A stretch of 64,000 nt of DNA from assembly GCF_006539145.1 (NCBI RefSeq), contig NZ_BJML01000005.1:124001-188000 (forward strand), in the 5' to 3' direction. Made by a program: the position numbers and the translations under genes. Each line of letters starts with the position of its first letter. Position 1 is the first letter of the stretch. Shown piece after piece: positions 2,502-33,883 of this stretch. The notes below the pieces were generated by a model. It was given only the letters and a program-made list of their open reading frames with translations. It was not told where the DNA came from and did no database searches. The stretch is from Microbacterium testaceum. GTDB taxonomy: Bacteria > Actinomycetota > Actinomycetes > Actinomycetales > Microbacteriaceae.

Positions 2502-3956
2502 GTGACCAAAGAGCTCCGACGCCTCAGCATCGTCATGCTGGCGATGTTCCTGGCCCTGTTCGCTTCGACGAGCATCATCCAGGTCGCCCAGGCCAGTTCG
2601 TTGACCAACACCACGGGCAACACCCGCGCGCTGTACGACTCGTACCAGATCCAGCGGGGATCGATCATCGCCGGCGGCACCGCGATCGCCTCCTCGGTTC
2701 CCTCGGACGACGTGTACAGCTGGCAGCGTCAGTACACGGATGCCGCGATGTGGGCGCCCGTGACGGGCTACATGAACCCCGTGCTCGACAGCAAGACCCA
2801 GATCGAGTCGGCGGAGAACAGTGTGCTCAGCGGCTCCGATTCGAACCAGTTCTTCTCGCGCATCGACCGGGCCATCACCGGTCAGGCTCCGCGCGGATCG
2901 AACGTCGAGCTCTCGCTCGATCCGACCGTGCAGAAGGCCGCCTGGGACGCCATGGGCGACCTCCAGGGTGCCGTCGTCGCGATCGAGCCCTCGACCGGCC
3001 GCATCCTGGCGATGGTCTCGACGCCCAGCTACGACACCAACACGCTCGCCTCGCACGACACCGACGCCGTCAACGCGGCATACGACCAGCTCGTGGCCGA
3101 CCCGTCGAAGCCGATGGACAATCGCGCCATCGCGGGCAACCTCAACCCCCCGGGCTCGACCTTCAAGCTCGTCGTGGCGTCGGCCGCCCTGGCATCCGGT
3201 CGTTACACACCCGATTCCGCGTTCCCCAACCTCGCCGCGTACACCCTGCCGCAGTCGACGAACGTCGTCAGCAACGCCGGCGGCGGCACCTGCGGCGGGG
3301 GCGACACCGTCACGATCGCGACCGCGCTGCGCCTGAGCTGCAACATCCCGATGGCCGAGCTCGCCGTCGAGCTCGGCGACGACGCCATTCGCGCCGAGGC
3401 GGAGAAGTACGGCTTCAACAAATCGTTCAGCATGCCGCTTGAGTCGACCCCCTCCACCTACCCGACCTCGCCGAACGCCCCGCAGACCGCGCTCAGCGGC
3501 TTCGGCCAGGGCGACGTGCGCGCCACGCCCCTGCAGATGGCGATGGTGTCGGCTGGCATCGCGAACGGCGGCGTCGTCATGAACCCGCGCATGGTCGACC
3601 GCGTGATCGAGCCGAACCTGTCGGTCAAAGACGAGGCGAGCAGCAGCGAATTCGGGCGGGCTCTCGAGCCATCGATCGCCTCGCAGATGGTCACCATGAT
3701 GACGGCGAACGTCCAGGACGGCGCAGCATCGAATGCAAGAATAGACGGGGTCGCAGTGGCGGGTAAGACCGGCACGGCGGAGAACGATTCCCGTCCCTAC
3801 ACTCTCTGGTTCACCGGCTTCGCACCGGCGGAAGACCCCAAGGTCGCCGTCGCCGTGGTCGTCGAAAACGGTGGTGGCCAGGGGCAGAACGGGAGCGGCA
3901 ACGAGATCGCCGCCCCGATAGCGAAGAAGGTCATGGAGGCGGTGCTGGGTAAATGA
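2502..3956 (+). CDS. pbpA: Penicillin-binding protein A, class B transpeptidase
   Basis: Cross-links peptidoglycan; partner of the SEDS polymerase upstream. 484 residues: N-terminal membrane anchor at about 8-32, a linker/dimerisation part, and a transpeptidase domain with the three active-site motifs STFK (about 219), SCN (about 279) and KTG (about 422). The GTG start is chosen because it follows a strong GGAGGAGG ribosome site at about 7 nt and the membrane anchor begins just after. The 49-bp gap from the SEDS gene carries no terminator. The stop overlaps the pknA start (ATGA). An expected substrate of PknB-type kinases by analogy with mycobacteria; this regulation is inference. Confidence 0.95.
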
Positions 3957-5731
3957 GACCGACGCAAGGTGTGACCTTCGGAGGACGCTACGAGCTCGAT
4001 TCGCGGATCGCGATCGGCGGTATGGGCGAGGTCTGGGAGGCGACGGATCACGTCATCGGACGTACCGTCGCGATCAAGATCCTCAAAGACGAGTACATGG
4101 GCGACCCGGGCTTCCTCGAGCGCTTCCGTGCCGAGGCCCGTCACGCTGCCCTCGTCAACCACGAAGGCATCGCCAGCGTGTTCGACTACGGCGAAGAAGA
4201 CGGCAGCGCCTTCCTCGTGATGGAACTCGTCCCGGGCGAAGCCCTGTCGACGATCCTCGAGCGCGACGGCTCTCTCTCGACCGACAAGACTCTCGACATC
4301 GTCGCCCAGACGGCCGCCGCCCTCCAGGCCGCGCACGCGGCGGGCCTCGTCCACCGCGACATCAAGCCGGGCAACCTGCTGATCACGCCCGACGGTCGCG
4401 TGAAGATCACCGACTTCGGCATCGCGCGCATCGCCGATCAGGTGCCGCTCACCGCGACCGGCCAGGTCATGGGCACGGTGCAGTACCTCTCGCCCGAGCA
4501 GGCGTCCGGTCACCCGGCGTCGCCGGCCACCGACACGTACTCGCTCGGAATCGTCGCCTACGAGTGCCTCGCCGGAAAGCGCCCCTTCACGGGCGAGTCG
4601 CAGGTCGCGATCGCGATGGCGCAGATCAACGAGCAGCCCGCTCCGCTCCCGCCCACCGTCGCGCCGTCGGTGCAGAACCTCGTGATGGCGATGATCGCCA
4701 AGAAGCCCGATGACCGACCGGCCTCCTCCGCTGCCGTCTCGCGCGCTGCCACGGCCCTGCGTCGGGGCGACCTCGCCGCTGCGGCGGCCGCCGTACCGGC
4801 GATCGCGGGCGGTGCGGCCCTCGTCGACGACGCGACGCAGCTGCTCACGGCCGGCGGACAGACGTCCGCCACGACACGCCTCATGCCTGCCTCCGCAGCC
4901 GCGACGTCGCTTCTCAGCGAGGAGCACCGAGAAGAAGACCCCGCACCGCAGAAGAAGAAGCGCAGCCCCTGGACGTGGCCGTTGATCGCGCTCATCGCGC
5001 TGCTCGCGCTCGTTCTGATCGGCACGCTCGTCACGCTGCTGTCGAACCAGGGTGAACCGGATGCCGTCCCGGCGAGCCCCTCGGCCTCGTCCTCGACCCC
5101 GGCACCTCGGCCGTCGTCGCCCTCACCGAGCGCGTCCCCGTCGAGCACTCTCGTCGACGTCGACGCGCTGAACCTCATCGGCAAGACCTGCGACGAGGCC
5201 CGCGAGCTCTTGCGTGACGCGAACCTCGGTGCCACCTGCGCCACCGGCAACGCCGCAGCGAGCGCCGATCAGGTGGGAAAGATCTACGTGGTCGACCCCA
5301 CCGGGCGCAACCCGCAGGGCACCAACATCGAGGTCACGGTCTACGGCGACGAGACGCCCCTCTCCACCCCCGGCACCCCGACCCTCCCCGGAACCTCGGT
5401 GACGGCCGGGAGCGACATCCAGGTCTCGTGGCAGCAGTACTCCTGCCCCTCGGGCACCGGGTCGGTCACGTCGTACAACTTCACCGCGACCAACGGCACC
5501 TTCGACACCAACGGTCAGTCGACCGCGTCGTTCGCGCCGGACGCGCGGAACGCGAAGCTGACGGTCAGCAACGCCCCCGGTCAGACCCTGCGCGTGACGT
5601 ACACCGTCAGCTGCTCGGGCGCCGGTGACCGGACGGCCGGTCCGTCGGGTGAGGCCTCGGCGACGATCTCGGGCGGCAGCTCGGCATCGCCTTCGGCCAG
5701 CCCCGCGGCCGTTCCGACCGTCAAGCCCTGA
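3953..5731 (+). CDS. pknA: Ser/Thr protein kinase PknA-type with PASTA-like and Ig/Fn3-like extracellular tail
   Basis: Transmembrane Hanks-type kinase of 592 residues. Kinase domain at residues about 10-270 with the glycine loop GGMGEVWEA, catalytic [11 protein letters not shown] and SPEQ. A cytoplasmic juxtamembrane stretch is followed by one membrane segment (about 340-362), a Ser/Pro-rich spacer, one PASTA-like module (about 400-465, two Cys) and a further domain of about 100 residues, rich in Ser/Thr/Gly with two Cys, that looks like an Ig or Fn3 fold. Mycobacterial PknA lacks such an ectodomain, so this protein may sense an external ligand itself. Start overlaps pbpA stop. The identity as kinase is certain; the PknA label rests on position. 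Confidence 0.93.
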
Positions 5732-20992: not shown

Positions 20993-22144
20993 TCAGCGCA
21001 ACAGCAGGTTGGGCTGCAAGAGGTACTTGAACGTGCCCTCGCCGCCCTTCTCGACCGAGGTCTGGGGCGTGACCAGCACGGGGCTGAGCTTGTTCGCGTT
21101 GTCGCTCGAGGTGAAGGTGATTCGCGTGAACTCGCTGCGCACGGCACCGAGCGACTCGATGAGGTACTGCGGGTTGAGACCCAGCGTGACCTCATCGCCC
21201 ACGAGCGTCGCGTCGACCGACTCCGTCGCCCGAGCCTGCTCGGTGCCGGCGGCGTCCATCGACACACCGTCGGGGCCGAACGTGAAACGCAAGGGCGCGG
21301 AACGGTCGAGCACGAGCGCGACACGGCGGACCGCCTCGACGAGCTCGGCCGTGTTGACCACGCTGTGGTGCTCGGTCTGCGCGGGGAAGAGTCGGCGCAC
21401 GGGCGGGAAGTTGCCCTTGATGAGCAACGACGTGACGGTCTTGTTGCCCGACGAGAACGCGATGATCTCGCGGTCGCCCGAGCCCGAGAAGGCGATGGAG
21501 ATGTCGCCGCTGTGAGCGAAGGTCTTGCCGACTTCCTGCAGCGTACGCGCGGGCACGAGAGCGGACGTGGTCTCATCGGATGCCACGGCTCCGCCGTCCC
21601 ACGGGATCTCGCGGAGCGCGACGCGGTAGCGGTCGGTAGCGACCAGGCTCAAGCGGGTGCCGGAGACCTCGAGCTGCACGCCGGTGAGGACGGGGGTCAC
21701 GTCGTCGCGCGAGGCTGCGAACGCGACCTGTGCGATCGCCGTGGCGAACTCGTCGGCGGGGACGAGACCGGATTCGCCGGTGACCTCGGGGATCGCCGGG
21801 TACTCCTGAACGGGCATGGAGGCAAGCGTGAAGCGCGCGGAGCCGCAGGTCAGCAGGATGCCACCGTCGTCGTCGACCGTGATCTGGATCGGAGCGTTGG
21901 GCAGACGGCTCGCAATGTCGCTGAGGAGTCGGCCGTGCACCAGGATCGTGCCGGGCTCGTCGACGGTCGCCTCGATCGTCGTGCGCGCGGAAGCCTCGTA
22001 ATCGAAGGCGGCCAGGGTCAATCCCTGTTCGTTGGCCTCGATGAGCACACCGGCCAGGATCGGCTGCGGGTTTCGCTGGGGCAGGAGCTTGACCACGAAC
22101 GAGACGGCTTCGCTGAACACATCGCGATTGACGTGGAACTTCAC
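20993..22144 (-). CDS. dnaN: DNA polymerase III beta sliding clamp
   Basis: 383 residues, three repeated clamp domains of about 125 residues. The N-terminus MKFHVNRDVFSEAVSFV and the final block ILVTPQTS match the family. Start is GTG at 22144. Transcribed leftward out of oriC; because a terminator lies between dnaA and the origin, it probably has its own promoter within oriC. Confidence 0.97.
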   Translation of the reverse strand: MKFHVNRDVFSEAVSFVVKLLPQRNPQPILAGVLIEANEQGLTLAAFDYEASARTTIEATVDEPGTILVHGRLLSDIASRLPNAPIQITVDDDGGILLTCGSARFTLASMPVQEYPAIPEVTGESGLVPADEFATAIAQVAFAASRDDVTPVLTGVQLEVSGTRLSLVATDRYRVALREIPWDGGAVASDETTSALVPARTLQEVGKTFAHSGDISIAFSGSGDREIIAFSSGNKTVTSLLIKGNFPPVRRLFPAQTEHHSVVNTAELVEAVRRVALVLDRSAPLRFTFGPDGVSMDAAGTEQARATESVDATLVGDEVTLGLNPQYLIESLGAVRSEFTRITFTSSDNANKLSPVLVTPQTSVEKGGEGTFKYLLQPNLLLR

Positions 22145-22271
22145 GGGTGCTCCCTTGACGGCGGGTATGGCTTACCCATGCTAGTGCCCCCTTGCGGCGA
22201 CGCCCGCCGAGCGACGTCCCCACGGCAAGGTCATCGAATCTCTCTTAACAAAGAACTTGGATCTTCATCTT

Positions 22272-22422
22272 GTTAACAGCTGTGGAGAGTGTGGATAACT
22301 TGCGACACGCTTGTTAACGGCAGGGAACCAGGGGTCTGTTAACTGTGGACGAGCTGCGGAGAGCCTGTCGAGTTAACGACGGGTGTCGCGAGCGCCTTCG
22401 GCTGTTCCTCCACAGTGTTAAC
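22272..22422. repeat. Cluster of five GTTAAC palindromes in oriC
   Basis: GTTAAC at 22272, 22313, 22338, 22372 and 22417, at intervals of 41, 25, 34 and 45 bp, mostly in context TGTTAAC or AGTTAAC. A further copy lies at 24201 upstream of dnaA and one inside parA at 31747. The hexamer is expected about once in 16 kb at 70% G+C. Confidence 0.75.
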
Positions 22423-22547
22423 GCCTGAGTGCACAGATCATCCCGAGGAAAATCGAGTTATCCACAGGTTTTCCACACTGTGTAGAACCCCCTCCAAAAC
22501 CCCCTGTGTACGGCCTTATATGCCCGATCAGGCGCGGAAAAAGAGAA

Positions 22548-22580
22548 AGGGGCTCGAACCACGGTCGTGGTCGAGCCCCT
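22548..22580 (-). terminator. Intrinsic terminator of dnaA
   Basis: Hairpin with a 15-bp stem, one bulged A and a GT loop; on the minus strand it is followed by TTCTCTTTTT. It starts 14 bp after the dnaA stop and separates dnaA transcription from the origin and dnaN. Confidence 0.85.
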
Positions 22581-22594
22581 CGGGGAACGGGTGC

Positions 22595-26752: not shown

Positions 26753-27382
26753 ATGCCGGAACAGCTCGAGGCAGAGCCGAGTGCAGCGCTGACGCTGTTC
26801 GGCGACAACATCGAGAAGGCCCGTCGCTTCACCGAGAACCTGGCCCTGTACGGGGAGCAGCGCGGTCTCATCGGCCCGCTCGAGGTCCCGCGACTCTGGA
26901 CGCGTCACATTCTCAACAGTGCGATCGCTGCGCCGTACTTCGCGGGTCGCGCGGTCGACGTGGGCTCGGGCGCCGGGCTGCCCGGGCTCGTGCTGGCCAT
27001 CGCGCGGCCGGACGTCGAGTGGACGCTCATCGAACCCATGGAGCGTCGCACGGCCTGGTTGTCGGAGCAGGTCGGTGAGCTCGAGCTCGAGAACGTGACC
27101 GTTGCACGCATGCGCGGCGAGGAGTGGAGCGAGGGGCGCGTGTTCGATGTCGCGACAGCGCGCGCTGTGAGCGCGCTGCGGACTCTGCTTCCGTTCACCG
27201 CTCCCCTGGTGCGTCCCGGCGGGCGTCTCGTCTTCCTGAAGGGCGCCAACGTCGGAGCGGAGGTCGAGGCGGCCGCGAAGCAGGTGCGCAAGTACGGCCT
27301 CACCGATGTATCGATCGAGGTCGTCGGCGAGGGCGTGCTCGACGAGCCAACGCGGGTCTTCCTCGCCACGCTCGGTCGCTGA
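26753..27382 (+). CDS. rsmG: 16S rRNA m7G527 methyltransferase RsmG (GidB)
   Basis: 209 residues. SAM-binding motif VDVGSGAGLPGLVLAIARP, the acidic end of strand 2 (LIEPMERRTAWL) and RAVSALRTLLPF in the C-terminal part fit RsmG. Last gene of the rpmH operon; loss in other species gives low-level streptomycin resistance. ATG start follows the khpB stop by 8 bp. The large gene-free centromere region begins immediately after its stop. Confidence 0.95.
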   Translation: MPEQLEAEPSAALTLFGDNIEKARRFTENLALYGEQRGLIGPLEVPRLWTRHILNSAIAAPYFAGRAVDVGSGAGLPGLVLAIARPDVEWTLIEPMERRTAWLSEQVGELELENVTVARMRGEEWSEGRVFDVATARAVSALRTLLPFTAPLVRPGGRLVFLKGANVGAEVEAAAKQVRKYGLTDVSIEVVGEGVLDEPTRVFLATLGR

Positions 27383-27922
27383 GTGAGGCATGTGCACATA
27401 CGGCATGTGCTTTGGCGCTTTATCTATGTTTTTCCTATGCACGTGAAAGTTCTCTACTCGTGGGTGGAAACGTCGCTGACGTCGATCTCAGCAACCTTCA
27501 GAGCATCGAGAACAGCACCGCGCAGCACGCGAGGGTGACGAGGTCGACCGGAGTGGGTCGTGCCGCCCGGTCGCGTTGTCTCGATATGGGGCGCGGGGTG
27601 CAGTGCCGAACGGGAGCTCGGCAGGAAGTGCCGTTGTGAGAAGGCGGTAGAGGCTGCGATCGACGCGTGACCAGATGGCTCGCGCATCGGTGGCACCTAT
27701 GCTGTCTGCTTCGGTGCCGTGACGTCTTGGTCGTCGAATCCGGGGCTCCGAAAGACTTCGGCGTGTCCGTCGGAATGTGACCCTGGCGTGGCGGGAGGCC
27801 GTTTTCGAGCTCGGCAGGTTCGTTCGCTGGCGGTGAGTGATGTGTGCGCTCCGCGCCGTTCAGGTGACGTGTACGGGGCGGCCGGCCGGCCCGGGACCAC
27901 GTGCCGGGTGTGCAGGACATGA

Positions 27923-27936
27923 GTTTCACGTGAAAC
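27923..27936. other. parS: parS site 1
   Basis: Perfect GTTTCACGTGAAAC palindrome, the ParB (Spo0J) binding site. The most rsmG-proximal copy, 1.1 kb from the next. Confidence 0.95.
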
Positions 27937-29022
27937 GGTTTCGCGGCAGTTGCATCCCGGGGGGCTCGGGCGCTGCGATACGCCGGGGCGGGTTCGGCCA
28001 CGACGGACGTTCTCTGGTCACGCGTGGAACGAGTGGGCTGAACGACGATTGTCGTCTCGTCACCGAAGCCCTCGGCCGGTACCCGCGGAGGTCGCTGACC
28101 TTCGGCTCCCAGCGTGATCGGGTTCGTTCGGCGTGGCTTCGTCGCGCGCTAGCGAGCCGTGGTGCGTTTCGCGTCAGGATCGACCGCCACGGCGGAGGTA
28201 AAGCACCCGCGAGCGCTCTCGCGCTCTACTTCGAGTCTGGGACGCGCGCGAGACCACGGGAGTTCGCTCGTGCGTAGGCGTAGATGTCCGCGTGATCCGC
28301 ACGCACGTCTAGCCTTGTTCGGGCTCAAGAGAGACCGACGGCTCTCCCCCACTCGCACGGCGGCCTCCTTCCATAGCGCGCTCAAGAGCGCACACGTCTG
28401 CAGGGTGAGAGAGGCTCCTGCACGACGTGCCCGGCACGTACTCGCGTTCCCTGGAACGACAGGGGTGGGCAGCTCTCGCAACGATCACGGCGCACATCGG
28501 GCTGTGTCGCGCGTCGGGTCCCCTGCCGGGCACTGAGCCGACCGCCCGGGTGCTTGGTGGCGGGGTGCGGGAGTCGCACGACACAGTCACTGTTCCAGCG
28601 TCTGCGGGGCGGGGTGACGTCGTGGTCGACCCGCGACCAGGGGCCTACGGGCAGCACCGATACGTGATCGTCGAGCGGTTCATCTGAGCGAGCCGGCTGG
28701 TGGGTGGCGGCGCTCTCCGTTCCGTCTGATGTCGGCGGTGACAGTCGCATCAGCTCGGTCCGATGCACGGGGCGACTGAGATCTTCTCGTTGGCCACACT
28801 CAGTGTCACGCGCCCGCATGGAAGGCCGCCCCCCCCGACGCGGCTGAGACGGGGCCCTTGGATGGTCGGGCTGCTCGTCGTGGTGAGGCCCGGATGTTCT
28901 CTTGCGGTTCGCCTCGTACGGCGGCGAACTCTCAATCGTCGCCCCTGCTTCTACTCCCCTGCTGGCTGATCGTCCACCTGCCGCACAATCCACGCGGCGT
29001 TCTCACGTCGGTGTGCCGCTTG

Positions 29023-29036
29023 GTTTCACGTGAAAC
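29023..29036. other. parS: parS site 2
   Basis: Perfect GTTTCACGTGAAAC palindrome. It is the first of a closer group of sites between 29.0 and 30.1 kb. Confidence 0.95.
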
Positions 29037-29219
29037 GTCCCGTTGATCCTGCGCGCGATGATTGCGCAGGTGGTGCGTTCTAGGCCGGCGGGGAAGTCGT
29101 GGGTCGACACTGCTCGGATCGTGGGTGCTCCGTGCCCGTTGAGGTGGAGCTTGCGCGATCAATTGCGTCGGCAATCGATGCAGTGCGACGGCAATCTGAG
29201 CCGGTTCGATGTGGCACGT

Positions 29220-29233
29220 GTTTCACGTGAAAC
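29220..29233. other. parS: parS site 3
   Basis: Perfect GTTTCACGTGAAAC, immediately preceded by GGCAC, which forms a second CACGTG core (29215-29220) directly abutting the site. Confidence 0.95.
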
Positions 29234-29604
29234 AGCGGAGGCGTGTCGGGTGGTGGCGTGTCTGTCGGTGGGTGCTGAAGGGTGAGCACGCAGCGTCGGA
29301 CCGTGGGACTGCGCCAACATGGAGAGATGCACGCCGTGTGCCCTAGCGGTCACGAACTCACGGTCATTGTCGCGAGATAGCTGGCGGACAATCGGCCTTT
29401 GGGTACTCTTCGCGCGGAGCGGAAACGCACTTCTATCTGTCGTCGGCCACGTGTCCCGGGTTGGCGTGGGCAGATTGATAGTGCACGCCCGATCGAAGGC
29501 GGCGCGCGGCTAGTTCATCGCTACCCACCGCTACCCACCTGTTGACGAGCGCGGAGTGCGACACCGCGACCGGACGCGGTGACGCCGGAGGAGAGCTGAT
29601 GAGG

Positions 29605-29618
29605 GTTTCACGTGAAAC
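29605..29618. other. parS: parS site 4
   Basis: Perfect GTTTCACGTGAAAC palindrome, preceded by a GGAGGAGAG purine tract (29586-29594) that resembles a ribosome site but precedes no convincing gene. Confidence 0.95.
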
Positions 29619-29780
29619 ACCGCTGCGAAGCGAGCCACTGGGCGATGTTGCGTCGGGTTTCTCGGGTTGTCCGCTGCTGTGCTCCGTCCACGGCCACTCC
29701 GATTATCCAGAGTCCCCTAGCTTCTCCGTCTACGTACTTGGACGGTCAGTGCTCCGACGGGCGTGGTGAGGACAGCGAGA

Positions 29781-29950
29781 GGTCGGCGCACCTGCTGGGG
29801 TTTCGCCCGATAGGAGCTTCGTGCCCTGGGAGTGAGTGTCCGTCATCTCGCGGTGGGCGGAGGCGGCGCACTAGCGCGGGTTTCGTCCGGTGGGAGCTTC
29901 GTGCCCTGGGAGTGAGTGTCCATCATCGCGCGGTGGGCGGGGGCGGCGTA
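29781..29950 (+). repeat. 80-bp tandem duplication in the centromere region
   Basis: Two adjacent copies with an exact 80-bp period: TTTCGCCCGATAGGAGCTTC (29801) matches TTTCGTCCGGTGGGAGCTTC (29881), and CGGTGGGCGG recurs at 29851 and 29931. Similarity continues into GGCGGCGCA/GGCGGCGTA at the joins, giving about 2.1 units. The copies differ at several positions, so the duplication is not recent. Confidence 0.85.
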
Positions 29951-30037
29951 CATCGGCGTGGTCACCCGCCGGTGAAGCGGGACTCCCCCGCATCTCGAGC
30001 CGCGAGTCAGCGGAGCTCATCACCAGTGATCGGCACC

Positions 30038-30051
30038 GTTTCACGTGGAAC
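30038..30051. other. parS: Degenerate parS site 5
   Basis: GTTTCACGTGGAAC: one mismatch (G for A at position 11) from the consensus palindrome. Probably a weaker ParB site. Confidence 0.75.
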
Positions 30052-31179
30052 ACGCGCCCGCGTGAGGGCTAAGACCTGCACGCCAGCTCCACCTTGACGG
30101 GAGAGATGGATAGCTGACCGGCGCCCAAGAAGGGTCTGACGCTGTGTGACATGGAGGGGCTTATCCGGCTCCACGCACGGCAGGCATGTAGCGAGCGGCC
30201 TCAGCCGTGGTCATCAGGGCCATCCGCCTTCTACGCCACGATGCAGAAGACCGCGATGTTTTGGACCGGCCGGCGCCGAGGTGTTGGCGCTCAGCTGCTC
30301 GCACTGTTCCGCAGTCGAAACCGTGTCGACCCGCGTGCGAGGTGCCGGGTGGAAGTCACGACGACCCACTGTCATCGCGCGCATTGATCTGTCCCTCAGG
30401 GTCCCGCGCTGGCTGATGGCCACGAGCCTTCTAGGCGGACCGCGAAAAAATGCGCTCCTGTTTGCGGAGGAGGACGCATCAGCGCTGTTCCCCTGCGTCC
30501 GATGACCGAAGCGTGCGAGATCGCGGCAGGTGAGGCCCGGGATACACAGCCGATCACCGTTCCGGTCCGGCTCTCGTGGCGAGCACCTTCTCTTCCCGAC
30601 ACCTCGGACTGCTGGGCGAGGGTGAACGTACGCTGAGCAGGGTGACATCGTGAACTGCCAGGCGTCCACGGTACGACGACACATTGGAGACAGCCGCATC
30701 CGAACGGACGCCTACTGTCTCCCGAGACCTCGACAGCTTGCGCTCAACCTTTTCGATGAGGGTGTCGAGTGCCGTCGGGTCTTGCGGGAGTCCCCAGTCG
30801 CTCTTTGGGGTTCAAAGTCGAGTGCCGCTCTCCCCGGCGCTCGTCCACCGAAACGCGGGCAAACGTGATCCGAAGCCGGTCGGGACGAGACGAGACGAGA
30901 CGCAGGGCGCGGGTGCAGCTGAACCGTCGGAGTGTGTCCTCCCCAGGTTCTTCGACTGTCGAGAGGCTGCTCGATCGTGACTCCCGTCTACTGTTGTGGA
31001 GTCTGTGACCTACTCTCTGCACCTCGACGGAGACGCGGATGGACGCGCGCGGGAAGCGGCCTCTCGCTCTCCCCCGGCGCCTGGCAATTACCGCTCAAGT
31101 GCATCTCGTGACTAGACCCGACGCGACTTCAGGACATCGGCACGATCGCCAAGGGGGAATCCAATGCCCCGTCACGAAC

Positions 31180-31193
31180 GTTTCACGTGAAAC
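31180..31193. other. parS: parS site 6
   Basis: Perfect GTTTCACGTGAAAC palindrome, first of three closely spaced sites leading into parA. Confidence 0.95.
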
Positions 31194-31324
31194 GCCGGCG
31201 ATTATGGGGACGCCGTGCAGGGACCCTTCGGGGCGTTGAGGCCACTCAGATGTGAGCGCGGAGCCGCACAGAGCTGGAATCGGAGCCGTCGGAGGACGGA
31301 CGTGCGTACGCTCACCGTCTGCAT

Positions 31325-31338
31325 GTTTCACGTGAAAC
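31325..31338. other. parS: parS site 7
   Basis: Perfect GTTTCACGTGAAAC palindrome, about 200 bp upstream of the parA -10 box. Confidence 0.95.
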
Positions 31339-31526
31339 GTGAATGACCACAGGCGCGTGTGGCGGCGCGTCGTCGCTCTCGGTGCGCTTCGCTGGCCGCC
31401 TGATGGTGGAGCGCAGGAACTCCCTGCAACGAGCTGGGCGCTCGAGAAGGCCGGGTGAGCCACGATCGACAAGCTTTGAATACACAGCCACGCCAGCCGT
31501 CCATCATGAGCGGGCCAGAGCGCGGG

Positions 31527-31532
31527 TAGACT
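31527..31532 (+). promoter_or_regulatory. Putative -10 box of parAB
   Basis: TAGACT, matching the box used at crgA and the sortase. Transcription would start near 31539, giving a leader of about 26 nt with the purine-rich site AGGGAGAGG at 31546-31554, before the GTG inside parS. Confidence 0.55.
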
Positions 31533-31557
31533 GAGCGGGTTGCCGAGGGAGAGGTGC

Positions 31558-31571
31558 GTTTCACGTGAAAC
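31558..31571. other. parS: parS site 8, overlapping the parA start codon
   Basis: Perfect GTTTCACGTGAAAC; the central GTG (31565-31567) is the parA start and the remaining bases encode the second and third codons. ParB bound here would cover the translation start and sit just downstream of the promoter. Confidence 0.9.
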
Positions 31572-32482
31572 AGTCCGATGAGGCGCCCGCGTCGACGTCG
31601 TTCGACGACTCCCCCATCGCTCGGGAGATCGCGAATCTCTCGGCGCGCCGGCGCACCCTGGAAGAGACGACCGTGGAGCTGTCGGGTCGCACCCGCGTGT
31701 TCACGGTCTCGAACCAGAAGGGCGGGGTGGGGAAGACTACGACCGCCGTTAACATCGCAGCGGCCCTGGTGTCGGTGGGAGCTCGTGTTCTCGTCGTCGA
31801 CCTCGACCCACAGGGCAACGCGTCCACGGCACTGGGTGTCGCACATAACGCGGACACGCCCAGCGTGTACGACGTCCTCATCGATGAGTTTCCTCTCGCG
31901 GACATCATTCAGACCAGTCCGGAGTCCCCGAAGCTGCTGTGCGCACCCAGCACGATCCATCTCGCCGGGGCCGAGATCGAACTGGTATCGCAGGTCGCTC
32001 GTGAGCACCGCCTCCGTGGGGCTCTGCGCGACTATCTCGACATCGAGGGCAACCACCTCGATTTCGTCATCATCGACTGCCCTCCCTCCCTCGGCCTTCT
32101 GACGATCAACGCATTCACCGCAGCAGACGAAGTGCTCATACCTATCCAGTGCGAGTACTACGCGCTCGAGGGCCTCAGTCAGCTTCTCGGCAGCGTGCAG
32201 ATGATTCAGAAGCACCTGAACCCCGGTCTTCACGTGTCGACGATCCTGCTGACCATGTATGACGGTCGCACGCGGTTGGCCCAGCAGGTCGCCGAGGAAG
32301 TTCGCTCGCACTTCACCGACGAGGTCCTGAACACCGTCATCCCTCGATCCGTGCGCGTCTCTGAAGCCCCGAGCTTCGGGCAGACCGTCATCGCGTACGA
32401 TGGCCAATCAGCGGGCGCCATCGCCTATCGCGAGGCCGCGGTCGAGATCGTCGCTCGCGACACCACCAAGAAGGGTTCCTGA
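31565..32482 (+). CDS. parA: Chromosome partitioning ATPase ParA (Soj)
   Basis: 305 residues. Deviant Walker A KGGVGKTTT at about 56-64, Walker A' DLDPQGNAST and Walker B FVIIDCPPSLG. ParA dimers on the nucleoid pull ParB-parS complexes, moving origins apart. A 50-residue N-terminal extension precedes the ATPase core. Start: the GTG in parS site 8 has a ribosome site 10 nt upstream, and the only earlier GTG (31554) hits a TGA at once. The stop overlaps the parB start (TGATG). Confidence 0.96.
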   Translation: MKQSDEAPASTSFDDSPIAREIANLSARRRTLEETTVELSGRTRVFTVSNQKGGVGKTTTAVNIAAALVSVGARVLVVDLDPQGNASTALGVAHNADTPSVYDVLIDEFPLADIIQTSPESPKLLCAPSTIHLAGAEIELVSQVAREHRLRGALRDYLDIEGNHLDFVIIDCPPSLGLLTINAFTAADEVLIPIQCEYYALEGLSQLLGSVQMIQKHLNPGLHVSTILLTMYDGRTRLAQQVAEEVRSHFTDEVLNTVIPRSVRVSEAPSFGQTVIAYDGQSAGAIAYREAAVEIVARDTTKKGS

Positions 32483-33453
32483 TGGCTAAGAGGACCGGTC
32501 TGGGCCGCGGTATCGGCGCCCTCATCCCCACCATGGAGCCGTCCGAGGCGCGTCCCGTCGACGTCTTCTTTCCCGACGGCAACACGAAGAGTTCGGACGC
32601 TGCCGCGGAGACCGCCGCTCCGGAGTCGTCCGACGACAACCTCGTCACCGTCCCCGGTGCGCGGCTCGTTCACATCGACCCGAAGTCGATCGTTCCCAAC
32701 CCACGCCAACCACGCACGAACTTCGACGCGGACGACCTCGCGGAGCTCGTCCACTCCGTCCGCGAGTTCGGAGTCCTGCAGCCGGTCGTCGTCCGGGATA
32801 AGGGCGATGGCACGTTCGAGCTGATCATGGGCGAGCGTCGCACCCGCGCCTCGCGCGAGGCGGGACTCGAGACGATTCCTGCCGTTGTCCGCGAGACGGA
32901 TGATGAGTACCTGCTCCGCGATGCTCTGCTCGAGAACCTTCACCGCTCGCAGCTGAATCCGCTGGAAGAAGCCTCCGCCTATCAGCAGCTGCTGGAGGAC
33001 TTCGGTATCACGCAGGAGGAGCTCGCAACGCGCATCGGCCGCTCCCGCCCCCAGATCAGCAACACCATTCGCCTGCTCAAGCTACCGGTCGCCGTGCAGC
33101 AGCGCGTCGCCGCGGGTGTCCTGAGCGCTGGACATGCTCGTGCCATCCTCTCGTTGGATGACCCCAAAGAGATGCAGAAGCTCGCCGACAAGATCGTCAA
33201 CGAAGATCTCTCCGTGCGGGCGGCCGAAGCCGCCGCGAAGATGCCGGGCGTCGCCCCCCTCCGCCAGAAGCCCAAGGCAGGATCGCAGCGATCGGGTCTG
33301 GATGCCATCGCCAATCGGCTCGGGGATCGCTTCGATACGAAGGTGCGCGTTTCGCTGAGCGCAAAAAAAGGCCAGATCAGCATCGATTTCGCGAGCATTC
33401 AGGATCTGAATCGCATCCTCGCCACCCTGGGTGAAGAGGGATACACCGGCTGA
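32482..33453 (+). CDS. parB: Chromosome partitioning protein ParB (Spo0J)
   Basis: 323 residues. N-terminal ParA-activating segment (KRTGLGRGIGALIP), ParB/Srx CTPase domain with box II GERRTRAS, then ENLHRSQLNPLEEA, the helix-turn-helix that reads parS (RIGRSRPQISNTIRLL), and a C-terminal dimerisation domain. CTP-dependent clamp loaded at parS sites upstream. Expressed with parA through a 1-bp stop/start overlap. Confidence 0.96.
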   Translation: MAKRTGLGRGIGALIPTMEPSEARPVDVFFPDGNTKSSDAAAETAAPESSDDNLVTVPGARLVHIDPKSIVPNPRQPRTNFDADDLAELVHSVREFGVLQPVVVRDKGDGTFELIMGERRTRASREAGLETIPAVVRETDDEYLLRDALLENLHRSQLNPLEEASAYQQLLEDFGITQEELATRIGRSRPQISNTIRLLKLPVAVQQRVAAGVLSAGHARAILSLDDPKEMQKLADKIVNEDLSVRAAEAAAKMPGVAPLRQKPKAGSQRSGLDAIANRLGDRFDTKVRVSLSAKKGQISIDFASIQDLNRILATLGEEGYTG

Positions 33454-33529: not shown

Positions 33530-33535
33530 GGAATG

Positions 33536-33883
33536 GTGACAGCGAACGACGACACTCCCCGCCGTCGCGCCAGCCTCGAGCTACTGCGCGCGGAGGCCTC
33601 CGACGAACTCGCGGTCCTCATCCACGAGCGCCTGCGCGGTGGAGAAGACCCGTGGGACTTCATGGAGGATCTTCCGAGCGTCGACGAACTGGTCGTGCTC
33701 ATCCTGCGGGCTGACAACATCTCGGAGAATGGCGGCGTCCGACCGACCCGCGCGCGCAACTACCGCGTGCTCCGACAGATCGCTCTCGACTACCCCGCCC
33801 TCACGAAGGCTGTGTGGCGCATTCTGGGCGAAGAAGAGCCACACCGCCGCTGGGACGCCAGCGTTCGTCTCGACGTCTCCTGA
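33536..33883 (+). CDS. Small conserved acidic protein of unknown function after parB
   Basis: About 115 residues, soluble, predicted mostly helical, no Cys. Notable stretches: DTPRRRASLELLRAEASDEL, GGEDPWDFMEDLPSVDELV and RARNYRVLRQIALDYP. Codon use matches the flanking genes, so it is real. It does not resemble a family I can name. It lies 80 bp after parB with its own -10 box, so it is probably not part of the parAB operon, though its location raises a possible link with segregation. Confidence 0.7.
   Translation: MTANDDTPRRRASLELLRAEASDELAVLIHERLRGGEDPWDFMEDLPSVDELVVLILRADNISENGGVRPTRARNYRVLRQIALDYPALTKAVWRILGEEEPHRRWDASVRLDVS

Follow-up and report, generated by a model that had tools for sequence, protein, structure and literature searches.

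The parS-studded block between rsmG and parA

What keeps more than 4 kb of DNA free of genes directly before the chromosomal partition genes? The question is raised by a 64,000 nt stretch of Microbacterium testaceum (assembly GCF_006539145.1, contig NZ_BJML01000005.1, positions 124,001 to 188,000 of the forward strand), hereafter the window, in which 4182 bp lie between the stop codon of rsmG (27382) and the GTG start codon of parA (31565). This block (27383..31557) has no coding signal and no Pfam or Rfam match, and it is studded with parS, the sites at which the partition protein ParB would load. From sequence comparison we hold it to be probable, if only modestly so, that the block is the chromosome's platform for ParB loading and spreading, and that its length free of genes matters.

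Seven of the eight sites are exact copies of the palindrome GTTTCACGTGAAAC, at 27923..27936, 29023..29036, 29220..29233, 29605..29618, 31180..31193, 31325..31338, and 31558..31571 (parS 1 to 4 and 6 to 8); the remaining site (30038..30051) is a near-parS, GTTTCACGTGGAAC, with a single mismatch (A11G). A motif search thus returned all eight where a sequence-only reading of the same DNA had placed them. The last parS contains the parA GTG and overruns by 7 bases the end which that reading gave to the block. Together the sites span 3.65 kb. At up to three mismatches the window holds nine parS matches against 1.65 expected, a number reached in 0 of 100 shuffles, the ninth (three mismatches) lying at 22126. 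At no more than one mismatch, these eight places are the only ones in the whole 28-contig assembly (3.59 Mb, 99.99% complete).

No frame in the block shares the codon bias of its neighbours, as had been proposed. The best open reading frame (ORF) scores 0.1 under a codon model whose training set was 352 genes from 464 kb of the window's genome and 0.2 under a window-trained model, by which genes called in the window score 13-390, mostly above 30; in 200 Markov resamples of the block scored by the latter model, the median is -0.5, 95% of values lie below 4.8, and the highest is 9.0. Over the whole interval GC period-3 power comes to 0.08, where the median gene has 62.5, and the interval's best 501-bp window (4.3) stands at about the 1st percentile of coding windows (4.2). 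A Pfam scan of the block in six frames, with stops as X, returned no family and an Rfam scan no match, so that neither a conserved protein nor a decayed gene was recognised, and RNA genes known to Rfam can be set aside. The block is the longest uncalled gap in the 464 kb; the next two measure 1412 and 1256 bp, the former concealing an ORF with a score of 132. Between 27000 and 31900 there are no sigma-70-type promoter-like sites (0.4 in shuffles) and one terminator-like site (2.6 in shuffles). The block shows G over C and T over A, as do 62 and 56, respectively, of the 66 intervals longer than 500 bp in Microbacterium-type loci, which is what little-constrained leading-strand DNA would be expected to show. 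Two tandem 80-bp copies, 88% alike (29784..29943), show that tandem duplication is one route of block growth.

Interval length among relatives

From a scan with RsmG the best 80 of 296 relatives were kept, 74 of which carry both genes; parA is absent within the locus in the other six (L023, L036, L043, L050, L080, and L088). With the window this gives 75 intervals from Microbacterium or near kin, five of the 74 records having a higher-rank name only (L022, L046, L066, L077, and L083). The rsmG-parA interval ranges from 94 to 7143 bp (quartiles 1080, 1973, and 3805), and in 68 of the 75 loci its final bases are half of a parS that sits at the start of parA. On a tree of RsmG, ParA, and ParB from 135 loci, made by a quick method and with 43 of 132 inner branches weak, the window falls within a clade of 23 loci (support 100), whose intervals measure 3.35-6.33 kb in 22 cases and 2.17 kb in the remaining one. 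A short interval in close relatives, which would have spoken for a recent insertion, was thus not found in the clade; length is kept there and sequence drifts. Across 72 loci, gaps other than the par gap never exceed 1230 bp; the par gap is the longest of its locus in 63, among them all 20 loci of the window's clade within that count. In a separate count, perfect parS occur in 115 of 119 genomes drawn from the genus, the window's own included.

Of the 52 loci that lie outside the window's clade, 43 also have a perfect parS near the rsmG start (about -630 to -740 from the rsmG match end), as do many other genera; the window and the 22 clade loci have none in that position.

Sequence turnover

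A search with the block, less its last 44 bp, against 365 other genomes of the genus gave no match of more than 70 bp, two candidates being scored per genome, and 24 of the 365 have a match of about 31-70 bp. Apart from parS, the sole part that blastn aligns with other species is the parA leader (31521..31564, plus strand; 7 loci, 82-89% identity), in which TAGACT at 31527-31532 is a likely -10 element. No second copy of the block exists in its own genome, so an origin as a copy of other DNA there is ruled out. Non-alignment of distant pairs means little because fourfold sites are near saturation; for the window and L011 these already differ by 0.49, and the failure of that pair to align was therefore dropped as proof of hyper-evolution.

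Informative pairs were taken as those with 22-40% fourfold difference (eight pairs below 0.40), the last 70 nt of the interval being excluded. Coverage of the non-coding interval is 0.24 for L009/L010 (fourfold difference 0.223), 0.00 for L012/L018 (0.257), 0.02 for L016/L028 (0.303), 0.10 for L047/L061 (0.347), 0.01 for L021/L028 (0.385), and 0.03 for L016/L021 (0.396). Other intergenic pieces of at least 150 bp, excised by the same procedure, have coverage of 0.64-0.99 in the eight pairs, at 3-4 pieces per locus that may include constrained elements; for L012/L018, L016/L028, L021/L028, and L016/L021 in particular, 0-3% of the interval aligns against 88-99% of these pieces. Simulations needed about 45% substitutions, along with indels at a few percent, to bring coverage near zero. 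The pair L009/L010 keeps all its seven perfect parS collinear, and an alignable stretch between two of them has 57% identity over 624 columns at a fourfold difference of 22%. Since global-alignment identities were uninformative (shuffled controls 0.65-0.68), scores and local matches were used instead; by score, four of the six inter-site segments of this pair are clearly above shuffles and two short segments are not.

Layout of sites and -10 elements

Across 41 intervals the spacing of perfect sites is more even than under uniform placement (mean quantile 0.24, Kolmogorov-Smirnov 3e-8), and the same holds for 34 intervals with almost no mutual alignment (0.26, 6e-6). Six control motifs, each usable in 4-40 intervals, give quantiles of 0.37-0.64. 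Spacings below 100 bp make up 16 of 248. The number of sites inside the interval grows with its length (rho 0.66). Per locus (72 loci), the median total of perfect parS is 6, with means of 4.4 at intervals below 700 bp and 6.3 above 3 kb. One class of single-mismatch sites, A11G and its mirror T4C, occurs 30 times in Microbacterium-type intervals against 0.0014 expected, and is more distant from perfect sites than randomly placed points are (0.71, p 6e-4), lying in the gaps between them as if to fill these. At 485 sites T or C is preferred immediately outside parS, followed by A. Only 4 of 670 within-interval site pairs have flanks more than 50% identical, so new parS have mostly not arisen by recent duplication. 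In some species (e.g. L045, L061, and L078) AT precedes the parS at the parA start, creating an additional in-frame ATG.

On either strand of the blocks, no other of the 64 patterns of this form is as strongly avoided as TANNNT, whose observed-to-expected ratios are 0.52 and 0.57. When scored by offset after TA, a T at the sixth place has ratios of 0.52 and 0.54, with values of about 1 at later offsets. In the window alone the pattern ranks 22 on the forward and 1 on the reverse strand. Among controls, flanking genes (same-phase offsets) give 0.36 antisense and 0.68 sense, tandem spacers 0.36 antisense and 1.22 sense, convergent spacers 0.68, and divergent spacers 1.03 (1.40 against same-phase offsets). 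The blocks thus look like promoter-poor DNA, not regulatory spacers. Selection on -10 motifs across bacterial genomes has been described (PMC1939733; here and below, statements on published work refer to the portions of each paper that were consulted).

The surrounding partition locus

The gene order is dnaN, dnaA, yidC (60KD_IMP), jag (R3H domain), rsmG, the block, parA, and parB. rsmG (gidB; 26753..27382, plus strand) matches Pfam GidB at 3e-43 and parA (31565..32482, plus strand) AAA_31 at 8e-59; parB (32482..33453, plus strand) has the N-terminal, HTH (helix-turn-helix), and dimerisation domains (ParB_N, HTH_ParB, and ParB_C). Clustered perfect parS beside a parA ATPase and a three-domain parB mark a chromosomal (type Ia) ParABS system, and SMC is present in the genome (TIGR02168, 835 bits, above cut-off, at G000:C13). 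The presumed oriC is the dnaN-dnaA gap (22145..22594), placed by gene order from gene calls and the Pfam matches of its neighbours, and lies about 5.3 kb from the first parS; the dnaA start, from which the origin itself is deduced, is 3.4 kb away. A replication origin within the block was ruled out, as exact TTATCCACA or TTGTCCACA is absent there on both strands. Behind parB, at 33533-33883, is an ORF of 116 aa with a coding score and no Pfam match.

Genes within related intervals

Among the 92 intervals that measure 300 bp or more, 24 contain an ORF scoring above 8, three of the 24 scoring below 10, near the chance maximum in the Markov resamples. Pfam applied to ten interval proteins identified a split insertion sequence (IS) transposase of the IS4/5 type (L012), GIY-YIG (L033 and L140), GNAT (L038), AAA_18 (L072), glyoxalase (L076), and diacylglycerol kinase (L084), and gave no match for those of L010 and L027. 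A coding-like 501-bp window occurs in 19 of 65 Microbacterium-type intervals above 600 bp. The description of a gene-free, centromere-like, parS-studded region therefore holds for the window's own block and does not extend to all of its relatives. Genes presumably enter the place between rsmG and parA and then decay.

The split transposase of L012 lies within the parS block at 3220-4114 of the interval, as an insertion that is apparently decaying. The sister species L025, L027, L029, L030, and L031 share a minus-strand ORF in the first 0.4-0.8 kb after rsmG, before the parS, for which no Pfam match was found (L027 protein scanned).

Long blocks outside the genus

In 60 genomes of other genera, fetched from 120 Microbacteriaceae genomes searched for ParA and with three genera represented twice, the rsmG-parA interval has a median of 114 bp and reaches at least 1 kb in 14. 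In the 15 longest of these intervals no 501-bp window looks coding, the maximum being 6.9 where their own parA and parB have medians of 11-34; the L177 interval nonetheless contains a 60-aa ORF scoring 16. Long blocks are scattered over the tree, on which interval length must have crossed 1 kb no fewer than 22 times and 3 kb no fewer than 8 times. Four genomes of four genera (L150, L153, L158, and L160) have an rsmG-parA gap of 85-500 bp and carry a parS-rich stretch behind parB instead, with 4-5 parS in its first 1-1.4 kb and low period-3 power over at least the first 0.8 kb; seven Microbacterium-type loci have 1-3 parS 0.4-0.8 kb behind parB. This inspection covered 12 loci. Outside the family (20 genomes fetched, of 59 from the class searched), the rsmG-parA distance is 46-500 bp in 19 genomes and 2016 bp in one.

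A third placement is seen in L185, where six parS lie 0.9-2.1 kb before the rsmG stop rather than between rsmG and parA. Spurious block ORFs in L129, L131, L133, L168, L175, and L177 contain FHVK or VSRET, which are parS translated in different frames; annotators should be warned that short ORFs in such blocks may be parS read-through.

Origin and function of the block

If the block is a platform, ParB would load at the eight parS, close as a clamp, and slide onto the DNA between sites; the loaded ParB would build a partition complex, which ParA would move and which presumably also loads SMC. With several loading sites, mostly separated by some 90 bp or more, a dense, little-interrupted ParB domain would result, and the scarcity of -10 elements binding RNA polymerase, with no gene regulators between sites, would keep interruptions few. 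Only the sites, the total length, and the scarcity of promoters would matter, so that the letters between sites would drift fast, with insertions, local duplications, and deletions renewing them. Since the last parS covers the parA start codon, which suggests direct autorepression, ParB probably also represses parAB. Consistent with such a platform, every perfect parS of the assembly is in the block, with a full ParB and SMC in the genome; intervals in the clade are long though near-sister intervals align over 0-3%; spacing is even, sites rise with length, and TANNNT is in deficit; and long blocks recur in other genera, in four genomes behind parB. That relatives carry similar blocks of quite different sequence likewise suggests that length and sites matter and the letters between do not. 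For F plasmid ParB in E. coli, dips at promoters arise via bound proteins (PMC6238139).

Several observations weigh against the platform. Once a minimum distance of up to 90 bp is built into the null, little of the evenness is left (0.41, p 0.03); evenness is thus mostly the product of minimum distance, and regular spacing as a ruler is weakened. In the window itself the sites lack evenness (quantile 0.67), so that the expected conservation of length and spacing amid drifting sequence was borne out for clade length and drift, and for spacing solely as an evenness across species. Counted over the whole 15-20 kb locus, the number of perfect parS rises only faintly with interval length (rho 0.21, p 0.08), and with intervals down to 94 bp the genus as a whole has no need for length. 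Turnover is not found in all close pairs, as L037/L058 (fourfold difference 0.232) and L044/L059 (0.335), whose intervals are short (0.7-1 kb), still align across 86% and 91% of them. Avoidance of -10 elements is genome-wide and not block-specific, as the control regions show, which rules out a promoter avoidance peculiar to the block, and in the window alone TANNNT stands at 0.91 of expectation forward and 0.27 reverse (56 TA each). Active transcription is no major obstacle to F ParB (PMC6238139), and therefore transcription-free DNA alone would gain little; in Corynebacterium glutamicum one parS suffices for wild-type-like growth (PMC7083940).

In another account only parS would be selected, and landing DNA (IS elements, stray genes, duplications) would be tolerated, decay, and be slowly lost. 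Long blocks would then be a by-product of insertion balance, with nothing essential between rsmG and parA. We rate this account as less likely than not. Its best support is the gene entry seen in about a quarter of the intervals (IS4/5, GIY-YIG, GNAT, AAA, and lipid-kinase genes), joined by the coding-like windows in relatives, the tandem 80-bp duplication in the window, the wide scatter of lengths, and the many changes across the 1-kb mark. It does not readily explain why no other uncalled gap of this size exists in 464 kb of the genome, why the par gap so regularly exceeds every other gap of its locus, throughout the clade in particular, why no clade member on the tree falls below 2.1 kb, or why no recognisable gene is left in the window's block. 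Comparison alone does not separate the two accounts, because short-interval species exist and total sites hardly track length; of the two we favour the platform over a tolerated graveyard with selected sites, its main rival. Small RNAs, which the sequence-only reading had entertained as keeping the block open, or short proteins, missed by standard searches, are very improbable: the size of the block and an AT-richer patch just 3' of rsmG (27400-27460, read from the sequence) would fit them, but the Rfam and six-frame Pfam scans, ORF score, period-3 signal, promoter-like and terminator-like counts, and lack of conservation in the 365 genomes all disfavour them. Least credible of all is a recent insertion in this strain, e.g. 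a decayed prophage or plasmid piece. The sequence is indeed not found in other genomes of the genus, but 22 other clade members have 2.2-6.3 kb at the same place, which rules such an event out, the parS at the parA start is shared with relatives, and neither the six-frame Pfam scan nor comparison with 72,556 plasmid and 50,697 phage records revealed a mobile element or prophage remnant.

Comparison with known systems

In Streptomyces, parS sites lie among genes. Pseudomonas aeruginosa, Bacillus subtilis, and Streptomyces coelicolor have the same kind of parS and ParB, with sites clustered near the origin, and differ in that those of P. aeruginosa and B. subtilis lie among genes; no long non-coding parS block is described in the consulted parts of these sources (PMC7022226 and PMC7333895). 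The ParABS system of C. glutamicum (PMC7083940) is that of another actinobacterium with several identical parS near the origin, nine of ten intergenic, so that the dedicated block, put forward as unusual, is so in its size and not in having intergenic parS as such. There, ten sites are spread over 35 kb, 73 kb from oriC; in Microbacterium eight sites occupy 3.65 kb of gene-free DNA directly before parA. In the open-licence literature searched, mostly by title, no description of this block was found, a statement confined to that search.

Why parS number varies, and why sites cluster though one often suffices, has been asked in review (PMC7333895). With intervals ranging from less than 0.1 to more than 7 kb, a shared ParB system, and site numbers that stay fairly steady, the family amounts to a natural experiment on both and would allow a test of gene-free DNA length, not sequence, as a functional part of a bacterial centromere. 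More tentatively, and with a chance that we put somewhat short of even, Microbacteriaceae may have repeatedly evolved a regional centromere on either side of parAB, promoter-poor and gene-free, with length and parS layout selected and turnover faster than at synonymous sites. Regional centromeres of eukaryotes are gene-poor and carry an epigenetic histone mark and satellite arrays; their sequence evolves fast while position and extent persist. The Microbacterium block is like them in being gene-poor, of fast-changing sequence, and of kept place and extent, and differs in keeping a defined 14-bp site and in having no histone mark or satellites such as theirs. If the regional-centromere reading is true, it would be a prokaryotic counterpart of the fast-evolving centromeres of eukaryotes.

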